Positions 6,039-16,497 of a DNA stretch of 35,066 nucleotides are shown here, in pieces. The DNA is taken from the NCBI GenBank assembly GCA_903871465.1, contig CAIQHB010000058.1, positions 1-35,066 of the forward strand, given 5' to 3'. Source of the DNA: an uncultured Methanosarcinales archaeon (GTDB taxonomy: Archaea; Halobacteriota; Methanosarcinia; Methanotrichales; Methanotrichaceae). How positions within the stretch are numbered: position 1 is the stretch's first letter; every line of letters starts with the position of its first letter. The notes under the pieces are model-generated. The model had not been told where the DNA came from, searched no databases, and saw nothing but the letters and a program-made list of their open reading frames with translations. The position numbers were made by a program, and so were the translations under genes.

Positions 6039-6941
6039 CTAATAAGACACTTTGGGGCAAGTGCAATCAAAGATTCCTTTTGCATCTGTTCCAAAGCCTT
6101 TCTTGTCAGAATACGTCATATCTTCCCAACCACCGGAACAACAGGGCAGCCACGAATCTTCGCTCACAATCTTGGTCACAGGCAATGTCAGGTTCATCTT
6201 GGTCGCAAAGTTGAAGGTTCCTGTGTAGTCTTCGTCTATTGTGATGTTGGACTTGTGCCAAGCACTTTTACCTATGTCCCAAGTGCCAATATTACCCTGT
6301 AGCATTCCTATATGAGCAGTACCGCTAGTGACGCCTCCATTTAGATTCATAAGGGTCCTGGCCAAGCCTTTAGAGGCACCTGTATAGGAGTAATCATCCT
6401 CTACACTTGCTACCAGATCCATGTTGATGGCCTTTGCTTGCTTAGTTTCGTGGGTCATAGATGTCTCTGAAGCGTAATTCTTGATCTGAGTCTTGTCGCT
6501 TAGAAGAGAGTTGAACTTTACGGGATGGTTGGCATAGTAACCATTGCCAATGGACATAGTTTGAGGTTCATAGACCATACTATTATTATCAAAGGCAGCA
6601 ATCAATCCATAAGCATAAATCGAATCAGGAGAGACCTGGCTTTTTGTTGATTCAGTAGATGTTATAATCGATTCTCTTTCAATCGATCCACTACCACGAT
6701 CAATTTTTTGAAGGTACACGTCAGCCAATCTGCCGTACACGCGAGCATCAGCGTGTGGACCTTGTGCAACTACTTTGTCGTTGCTTGCAAAAAGTCCACT
6801 ACCGCGGGTGCTATCCTCGTATTTGAATATTACTCCCGTGGTTTTCTCTTGGAGGGGATCTTCTGACATCACTAGTCCAACAAGCATGATCAGACCAAGC
6901 ATAGCTAAAAAGATTCTGCAAGAACGCTTCCCTCCACACAT
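6039..6941 (-). CDS. Secreted protein of the AHIG/WLPC family, unknown function
   Basis: This 300-residue protein has a hydrophobic N-terminal segment (IFLAMLGLIMLVGLVMS, about 10-26) that should be a signal peptide or anchor. The mature part contains TMSIGNGY (128-135), AHIGM (209-213), DYTGTF (238-243) and WLPCC (264-268), plus further Cys near the end (DCTCP). The C-terminal third aligns by eye with the secreted protein at 15637-16497, which has AHIGW, DLTGVF and a terminal WLPC in the same order, so they are probably homologues. No enzyme motif is seen. A surface, sheath or extracellular role is possible. The shorter start at Met14 would still leave a signal peptide. Confidence 0.75.
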   Translation of the reverse strand: MCGGKRSCRIFLAMLGLIMLVGLVMSEDPLQEKTTGVIFKYEDSTRGSGLFASNDKVVAQGPHADARVYGRLADVYLQKIDRGSGSIERESIITSTESTKSQVSPDSIYAYGLIAAFDNNSMVYEPQTMSIGNGYYANHPVKFNSLLSDKTQIKNYASETSMTHETKQAKAINMDLVASVEDDYSYTGASKGLARTLMNLNGGVTSGTAHIGMLQGNIGTWDIGKSAWHKSNITIDEDYTGTFNFATKMNLTLPVTKIVSEDSWLPCCSGGWEDMTYSDKKGFGTDAKGIFDCTCPKVSY

Positions 6942-7038: not shown

Positions 7039-8316
7039 TTGAGGAGAAAACGGCAAACCTTTATAGCAACTCCTACTAGAAAATATTCTGTGTCGATCTC
7101 ACAGGAAGCCCTCTTTAAAATAGCACTGAATCTCGAAGATCCTTGGTACATCAAATCAATAGATTTTAGTGCCGAAGGTAAACAACTCGATGTCCACGTA
7201 GATTTTGAGTCAGGCAGCAAATTTCCTTGTGCAAAGTGCGGCAAACCAGAGTGCTGCGTGCATGATACTATCGAAAGAACCTGGCGTCACTTGAATTTCT
7301 TTCAGTTCAAAACCTCCACTGCCGCGTTCCTCGCACAGAATGCAAAGACTGTGGAGTAAAACAGGTTAAGGTTCCCTGGGCCAGAAAAGGCAGCGGATTC
7401 ACTCTGCTCATGGATTCCATGATAGTCTTTGATGGCTCAGCATATGACTGTGACAGCGATTGCTGAGATGATAGACGAACACGATACTCGAATATGGCGG
7501 GTTCTAGAGTATTATGTTGGAGAAGCTAGATCTAATGAGGATTTTTCAAAGGTTAAATCAGTCGGCGTAGATGAAACGTCAAGAGCAAAAGGACATATGT
7601 ATGTTCCAGTTTTTATAAACCTTGATAAATCAAAAGTAGTGCATGTATGCGAAGGAAAAGATGCTTCGACCATTGAGTCGTTCAAGAACGATTTAGAGCA
7701 GCACAAAGGATCTAGCGACAATATAAATAATTTTTGCTGCGATATGTCTCCTGCATTTATATCTGGAATAAATGATACCTTCCCAATGCATCAATTACCT
7801 TTGACAGGTTCCATGTGATGAAGCTTATGAATGAAGCAATCGATAAAGTTAGGGGGAAGAGCAATCGCATAATGTTCTGCTTAAAAAGTCAAGATACCTC
7901 TGGCTCAAAAATCCAGAAAACCTTACGATCAAGCAAAATGAGACGTTCGGAGCTCTAAAAGATCTTAGACTCAAAACATTAAGAGCGTATAACATCAAAC
8001 TGGCTCTTCGCGATTTCTGGAATCAAGACCAGCATTCGGCTGAAGGCTATCTCAAACGATGGTATTTCTGGGCAACGCATAGCAGGCTCAATCCTGTAAT
8101 CGATTGCGCTAAAACCATAAAGAAGCATTGGAATGGGGTAACTAATTATATTAAAACTAAAATCAGCAATGGCATCTTAGAAGGAACTAATAGCCTCATT
8201 CAGGCGGCAAAGGGTAGTGCAAGAGGCTTCAGATCCACAAAGAATTTTATTATTACTATTTATCTTAGGACAGGAAAGCTCGAATTCAATCTACCCACAT
8301 GAAACAGCGAAGAGCC
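7039..8316 (+). mobile_element. Decayed ISL3-family insertion sequence
   Basis: This holds an ISL3-type transposase broken into several frames. The right end is probably at 8316: read inwards it starts GGCTCTTCGCTGTTTCATGTG, and a second, shortened copy at 33354-33774 ends in the same way (GGCTCTCCTTCATGTGGG inwards). I could not find a clear matching left inverted repeat. A weak match, GTTTCATCTGCCTA, lies at about 6950-6965, so the left end may be eroded or lie there. No target duplication is identified. Confidence 0.65.
7090..8302 (+). pseudogene. ISL3-family transposase, multiply frameshifted
   Basis: Pieces in order: a zinc-finger domain (GTG at 7090, or TTG at 7039, to about 7312) with SGSKFPCAKCGKPECC; a second zinc ribbon in another frame with CRVPRTECKDCG (about 7314-7425); the start of the DDE domain in a third frame (about 7429-7790) with VGVDETS and FCCDMSPAF; then DRFHVMKLMNEAIDKVRG after another shift; then the C-terminal part from about 7857, with ILEGTNSLIQAAKGSARGF, ending NLPT at the TGA 8300-8302. 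At least four frameshifts are needed. The catalytic Asp, Asp and Glu are all still present, so decay is recent. The element separates the secreted-protein genes from arcS. Confidence 0.8.
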
Positions 8317-15582: not shown

Positions 15583-15592
15583 GCTTAAATAT
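15583..15592 (+). promoter_or_regulatory. TATA box of secreted-protein gene
   Basis: GCTTAAATAT fits an archaeal TATA box. A start of transcription about 25 bases further (near 15613) would exclude the GTG at 15601 and leave the strong ribosome-binding site at 15623-15630 in the mRNA. Confidence 0.5.
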
Positions 15593-15636
15593 GATATTAA
15601 GTGATCAGATTGCAATCTAAACAAGGAGGGAACGAA

Positions 15637-16497
15637 ACGAAGAAACTCCTAATTTTGGCGGTATTAGCTATTGCGCTAATTGGTATGGCAGAATCTGCCA
15701 ACTACATGTACGAAAAAGCATCTGTCAATGGTGTAGGCTACAAGAACGTAGAGATGATCATCTCTACTCAGACCGGCTTTAACGGTCAGAAGCTTGTGGA
15801 GAAGGAGGCCGGCTCCGGTAATGTCATCACCGAGAGGACTGAACTTGAAGCCGAGAGACAACTTGAACGATTTGAAGGCTTCGTCGACAACTTGCCACCT
15901 GTTATGCCAAACGCCGATTGGCCGTACGGACTAACAAAAGGGGCTTGGGTTCCAATTGGATATCCGTATCAGGGAGATGGAGGATGTGCATTCCCAACCG
16001 GAACTGCATGCCCCATGGATTACATCAACTTCACCAAGGAAGCTGAGTTCGAGTACATGCCCGTGTCTTATCAGACCGGTACTTACGACCAGAAGTGGGT
16101 TGAGAAACTGTGCGTGCAGAACTACAGGATCGGCGCTGTGCTGACTGAGATGTACACCCATGCTGAGCACTTGCAGAAGACCACCGAGGTCAAGACCAGA
16201 GGATACGGCGACACTCTTGGTGGAATTGAAGGCCCGCTTTATCCTCGTGATGGAAACTGCCCAGCTTGTTGCACCGGTGTTCTCGAGGCTAACCTGAACA
16301 GCAATGTCATCGGCGTTGCCCACATTGGGTGGATCTCCAGGGACCCCAACGCTGACAACCAGCTCAAGGGACGCCATGCCGAATATGGCCGCAGTGTCGA
16401 AGACCTCACCGGTGTCTTCTCCATTGAGAAGTTCATCCAGCTATGGGGCAACTCTACCTGCGGAGCCATCAGCGTTGATTGGCTGCCGTGCGTCTGA
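15637..16497 (+). CDS. Secreted protein of the AHIG/WLPC family; probable ACG start
   Basis: From 15637 the product has 286 residues. Its first codons, ACG AAG AAA, head a textbook signal peptide (KK, then LLILAVLAIALIGMAESA). A strong site, AAGGAGGG (15623-15630), lies six bases before the ACG. The alternative is the GTG at 15601 (298 residues), but that would put 12 hydrophilic residues before the signal peptide and lies upstream of the start of transcription expected from the TATA box. The mature protein has several Cys, AHIGW, DLTGVF and a terminal WLPCV, in the same order as the secreted protein at 6039-6941. No catalytic motif is seen. An extracellular or envelope role is likely; the function is unknown. 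Confidence 0.8.
   Translation, partial: TKKLLILAVLAIALIGMAESANYMYEKASVNGVGYKNVEMIISTQTGFNGQKLVEKEAGSGNVITERTELEAERQLERFEGFVDNLPPVMPNADWPYGLTKGAWVPIGYPYQGDGGCAFPTGTACPMDYINFTKEAEFEYMPVSYQTGTYDQKWVEKLCVQNYRIGAVLTEMYTHAEHLQKTTEVKTRGYGDTLGGIEGPLYPRDGNCPACCTGVLEANLNSNVIGVAHIGWISRDPNADNQLKGRHAEYGRSVEDLTGVFSIEKFIQLWGNSTCGAISVDWLPCV

Follow-up and report, generated by a model that had tools for sequence, protein, structure and literature searches.

The window (the whole stretch of 35,066 nt analyzed here, from contig C58 of a Methanothrix-group genome of 3.13 Mb in 81 contigs) contains a gene for a predicted secreted protein with a putative ACG start codon. The features at this locus are:

15584 to 15591 (approximately), + strand: TATA-like box CTTAAATA, the best-scoring 8-mer, 53 nt 5′ of the ACG; its family-wide significance is weak.
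15601 to 15603, + strand: GTG, an upstream canonical codon directly after an in-frame stop; its use is unlikely, and most relatives have no equivalent.
15623 to 15630, + strand: Shine-Dalgarno (SD) sequence AAGGAGGG, complementary to the 16S rRNA 3′ end (...CACCTCCT).
15637 to 15639, + strand: putative ACG start codon, 7 nt past GGAGG, at a site that is ATG-like family-wide.
15637 to 15696, + strand: predicted signal peptide TKKLLILAVLAIALIGMAES, its first residue presumably Met, with the cleavage site placed by eye.
15637 to 16497, + strand: coding sequence read from the ACG, giving a predicted secreted protein of 286 aa with the C-terminus DWLPCV, from a family found only in Methanotrichaceae.

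Much of what a preliminary description of this locus had reported can be confirmed. The base at 15638 is C in the window sequence, the codon it belongs to heads a clear signal peptide (TKKLLILAVLAIALIGMAES, continuing ANYMYEK...), the six bases AACGAA separate it from AAGGAGGG, and the rest of the gene is intact, running to the C-terminus typical of the family. The reading frame runs uninterrupted from GTG 15601 until the stop at 16497, with two further in-frame canonical codons, TTG 15610 upstream of the ACG and TTG 15655 within the signal peptide. No Pfam or NCBIfam model matches the protein, a PDB sequence search gave no credible match, and its AlphaFold2 model is poor (mean pLDDT 53).

A TATA box usually lies about 25 nt from the transcription start; by this rule the position of CTTAAATA would put the mRNA 5′ end near 15612, that is, after GTG 15601, as the preliminary description had also proposed. 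For the window gene this is a prediction only, and the signal is weak in the family at large: over the 32 genes with near-cognate starts described below, TATA-like scores barely exceed those of shuffled sequence (6.56 vs. 6.38, sd 0.65), so that the promoter argument for the ACG is suggestive only. At 15624–15650 the AGGAG of the SD could pair with the CUCCU of codons 4–5, leaving the ACG in the loop. An RNA hairpin hiding the SD was nevertheless rejected, since the fold of the window gene is not unusual compared with shuffled sequence (z −1.17) and most relatives lack the pairing, many having CTA CTA or CTA CTG at codons 4–5.

The family of the window gene was found in all 37 genomes of family f1 (its own and 36 relatives), usually as several paralogues, and in none of 23 genomes from other families of the class. 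A census of 155 of its loci gave 109 distinct N-termini; three were omitted for lack of sufficient upstream sequence, as were matches starting past query residue 12. A GGAGG or GGTGG SD precedes 96 of these; the 13 without one in the expected stretch include some with other SD forms and ATG, and a few that are second domains or misaligned. In 64 of the 96 a canonical start is found 3–13 nt past the SD (ATG 40, TTG 21, GTG 3). In each of the remaining 32, an in-frame near-cognate (one base off ATG) lies 6–9 nt past it (ACG 21, ATC 4, ATT 3, CTG 2, ATA 2). The preliminary description had proposed a comparison with orthologues for ATG at this position; of the 96 SD-bearing family members, 40 have ATG after the SD and 32 a near-cognate, most often ACG.

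The pattern exceeds what chance would give. Under a codon-blind rule, which takes whatever in-frame codon lies 7–9 nt past the last SD core, one of the five is found in 31 of the 32 genes (8–19% expected; 17–19% at neighboring codons), and the single exception is AGG, with ACG immediately before it. Relatedness among the genes inflates a test of this kind, although they span considerably more than ten genomes and several groups of genus rank. Start class also goes with leader type: GGAGGG leaders precede 29 near-cognate and 13 canonical starts, vs. 3 and 51 for other leaders. GTG, an efficient start one transition away from ATG, does not occur among the 42 GGAGGG leaders. Raw counts of GGAGGN5-9ACGAARARR were no higher than for a reversed control in most genomes, and the pattern is informative only after a reading-frame check. 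Candidates set aside as ambiguous, with a canonical codon nearby, were L191/L192, L296, L306, L311, and L263.

A sequencing or assembly error at 15638, left open by the preliminary description, might be suspected in a window from an 81-contig assembly. The same codon is however found at the same place, within the same range of SD spacing, in four genes of the genome to which the window belongs, as well as in many independent assemblies, and near-cognate starts also occur in the two-contig genome G004. A base error is thus very unlikely, and we give it practically no weight.

GTG 15601, in frame right after a stop, is the choice of ORF callers; initiation there or at TTG 15610 would lengthen the protein by as many as 12 residues ahead of the signal peptide. 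In the case of the window gene this remains formally possible. By eye, though, GTG 15601 has no SD at a suitable distance upstream, and the inferred mRNA start would fall after it. More generally, in 26 of the 32 near-cognate genes the stretch from the preceding stop up to the near-cognate contains no in-frame ATG, GTG, or TTG (within an upstream view of 240 nt at most), the exceptions being the window gene (L001), L008, L126, L078, L093, and one L107 gene. In L012 and L016 the stop abuts the start (TGA ACG), as it does in one L107 gene (TAA ACG), and in L004 and L094 an in-frame stop lies two codons before the near-cognate. Over the 32 genes, the same frame 5′ of the SD is unconstrained (pS 0.77, pN 0.71), while the signal-peptide codons have pS 0.70 and pN 0.37. 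Use of either upstream codon is accordingly held to be quite unlikely.

Initiation might instead occur inside the signal peptide, at TTG 15655 in the window gene, so that the export signal is shortened or absent; most signal peptides in the set do contain a TTG or ATG. These internal codons vary in place from gene to gene, most are too distant from the SD, and a start at one of them would remove the charged beginning of the signal peptide. L094 and L305 (the latter in G004, of 3.0 Mb) have no ATG, GTG, or TTG at all from the upstream stop through the end of the signal peptide. This leaves internal initiation with only a very small chance of being correct.

A second secreted-protein family was identified by searching 26 genomes of the genus for the SD-ACG pattern, followed by frame checks. 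Distantly homologous to the first (hhalign 93%, E 2.5e-7), it is present in all 25 g1 genomes and in none of the 16 other genomes searched. An SD and signal peptide were found in 38 of its 44 distinct genes, the other six receiving no call by the rule based on these. The 38 starts are CTG (25), ACG (6), ATA (1), ATG (2), TTG (2), and GTG (1), plus the window's own member:

6039 to 6941, − strand: distant second-family member, with an ordinary ATG at 6941 just before its GGAGGG; the rule picked TCT.

The tally favors CTG, some loci having been fetched by a CTG pattern; among those fetched by protein alone, CTG and ACG are already the rule. The sequence GGAGGGATTGAT-CTG-AAG-AAG, or a near variant, is found in most genomes of the genus. 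In 17 genes with the CTG pattern the start is CTG in all, a biased result since the selecting pattern required it; invariant leucines elsewhere in these genes are mostly encoded by three or four different codons, TTG being a frequent one. No TTG start was seen among the SD-keeping genes of the CTG subfamily in the second-family tally. The near-cognate start is thus conserved as a class; in the second family, whose near-cognate starts also occur in G004, it is conserved as CTG. G004 has both CTG and ATA members. The near-cognate start is dispensable in some lineages: L220, L221, and L230, three of the six genes without a call, have no SD at the near-cognate site, and an ATG further upstream would prepend some 15–20 residues. 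Adjoining the second-family gene of the window is a cysteine-rich ORF (7039–7359, + strand) that looks like an N-terminal transposase segment, with a resemblance to the ISL3 type.

Near-cognate copies could also be silent cassettes or decaying genes from which the ATG has been lost, with no role but that of recombination donors. Each genome has many paralogues, and on a tree of 99 mature proteins the start classes are intermixed, with at least 22 changes of the near-cognate class, 9 of them forced by well-supported branches; the class therefore arose, or moved between copies, many times, which fits copy exchange. Among the paralogues of the window's own genome (L001–L008), two well conserved blocks are separated by variable inserts, and the types of start leader are discordant with the mature-protein tree, as if 5′ parts had been swapped. 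Purifying selection is nevertheless the same in the two classes, with mature-part pN/pS of 0.110/0.721 for the near-cognate and 0.114/0.691 for the 64 canonical genes. The SD and its spacing are retained, and in 31 of 32 cases the position is filled by a near-cognate, not by a random codon; in the second family near-cognates are the rule. One of the 32 near-cognate frames leaves its locus, and 30 of the 31 complete ones reach the family C-terminus (L131 ends differently). Silent cassettes are on these grounds improbable. The preliminary description had offered a mutated ATG and a non-standard start side by side; with SD, spacing, signal peptide, and normal purifying selection all kept among near-cognate relatives, a damaged gene is unlikely and a non-standard start fits best.

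Three genes outside both families have a similar arrangement. In the window's own genome, a DUF4352 lipoprotein gene (L346, 315–1304, + strand) has an ATC start 7 nt past GGAGG and no in-frame canonical codon between the preceding stop and a point within the signal peptide. A gene for a secreted nuclease-like protein with an Ada-type zinc domain (L019, 2439–3269, − strand, in G031) has an apparent ATA start after GAGGAGGG, and one for a dockerin and periplasmic-binding protein (L197, in G014) has an ACG start, the corresponding codon being ATG in a 97% identical relative from G012. The trait is thus not confined to one family. It is rare, however: a random 400 kb of G004 gave no convincing near-cognate start in 289 genes with a visible 5′ end, its four raw hits having canonical codons upstream.

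RNA editing offers another route to a conventional start. Plant plastid genes with a genomic ACG at the start, as here, are edited C-to-U to AUG, and the same change in the mRNA would convert CUG to UUG prior to translation; over both families combined, the two most frequent near-cognates are ACG and CTG. Such editing could not convert ATC, ATT, or ATA to AUG, GUG, or UUG, and so fails for 9 of the 32 near-cognate genes of the first family (and for L305, L346, and L019), making it an exceedingly unlikely explanation.

The translation machinery has no evident peculiarity. The window's own genome gave 44 tRNA matches (most of these sites, though not every one, were called as tRNAs by ARAGORN), including one initiator-type tRNA, L334, with anticodon CAU. 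Among the tRNAs examined, the GGGCTNNNAAYCC stem-loop is found only in this initiator and in tRNA-Arg L329, and no special initiator with an anticodon matching ACG or CUG was found. The 16S 3′ end, present in one copy, is a standard anti-SD. A duplicated or odd aIF1 was likewise rejected, since nearly every genome has a single SUI1 (aIF1) gene, the exceptions being G010 (two partial pieces) and G008 (none).

The near-cognate start of the window gene thus appears to be natural, not an error, although its use as a start site is inferred. In the proposed mechanism, pairing of AAGGAGGG with the 16S 3′ end would position the ACG, at its distance of 7 nt, in the P site, where the single ordinary initiator tRNA (CAU) would start despite one mismatch, presumably with Met. 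ACG, CUG, AUU, AUC, and AUA, each one base off AUG, would be recurrent and evolutionarily kept starts in this secreted-protein superfamily, most likely keeping initiation low or conditional on otherwise strong ribosome binding sites: in effect a conserved brake on the translation of surface-protein genes. We regard this account as a whole as probable, with good confidence. The sequences themselves show that the SD, its spacing, and the near-cognate identity are conserved, that the frame is intact and constrained, that many members lack any other start, and that tRNA and rRNA are ordinary. Without RNA or protein data, use of the codon by ribosomes, insertion of Met, and low or regulated output as the purpose are all inferred. 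The reading of the preliminary description is supported, and the phenomenon is broader than it supposed, being superfamily-wide, with CTG, ATT, ATC, and ATA also in use.

Non-AUG initiation is already known, but near-cognate starts like these are very rare in known microbes. The E. coli infC gene has an AUU start, other bacterial examples being rare; it keeps output low and serves feedback control. Like the genes of the window family, infC has natural initiation one base off AUG. Cases of its type are single, mainly translation-related bacterial genes, whereas here there are dozens of archaeal secreted-protein paralogues with ACG and CUG the commonest starts, and the window-gene product is predicted to be secreted. 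In eukaryotes non-AUG initiation is scanning-based, whereas here a fixed SD about 7 nt away would select the codon. Conserved non-AUG starts are reported in eukaryotes (PMC5487733), where they likewise lower or regulate initiation. An archaeal initiation review, as far as it was accessible, names AUG, GUG, and UUG alone as start codons (PMC7531240), and a survey of AUG switches in 36 bacterial and archaeal groups gives 2 of 61,358 to CUG and 1 to AUU (PMC5622118). A search of the open literature listed no report of ACG, CUG, or AUH starts in Methanothrix, or of conserved ones in archaea, subscription journals being mostly outside the scope of this search.

Start efficiencies in E. coli relative to AUG are given as 58% for GUG, 30% for UUG, and 0.86% for CUG in one study (PMC11497404); GUG and UUG starts, which share position and SD logic with those described here (TTG in 21 SD-bearing family members), are thus efficient, unlike CUG. 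Sulfolobus aIF1 promotes discrimination against non-canonical starts (PMC6237735), and from these two results weak output would be expected. Such output might even be negligible in effect, unless tolerance is higher in Methanothrix. The persistence of near-cognate starts beside close ATG paralogues suggests that low or conditional synthesis of surface proteins is itself selected. Two purposes, both conjectural, would fit: matching of synthesis to export capacity, or control of the gene by initiation-factor activity. As to the products, the major sheath protein of Methanothrix thermoacetophila, MspA, is a surface protein of the same genus (PMC10470525) but at 60.9 kDa (PMC6242892) is twice the size of the window family (~30 kDa).

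These genes may form a dedicated class of ribosome binding site in Methanotrichaceae, with GGAGGG, about 6 nt, and a deliberately poor start codon, in which selection maintains the weakness as a brake or switch; we put this forward tentatively, the case for it being a little short of evenly balanced. If true, weak codons would be interchangeable yet barred from becoming efficient, and the switch would be read by initiation factors. To our knowledge, common gene callers accept only ATG, GTG, and TTG, so that surface proteins with near-cognate starts are likely mis-annotated, with a wrong start or a trimmed export signal. The near-cognate set, spanning several genera, is natural material for the study of start-codon fidelity in archaea (aIF1, aIF1A, aIF2), and bears also on whether archaea regulate through weak start codons.
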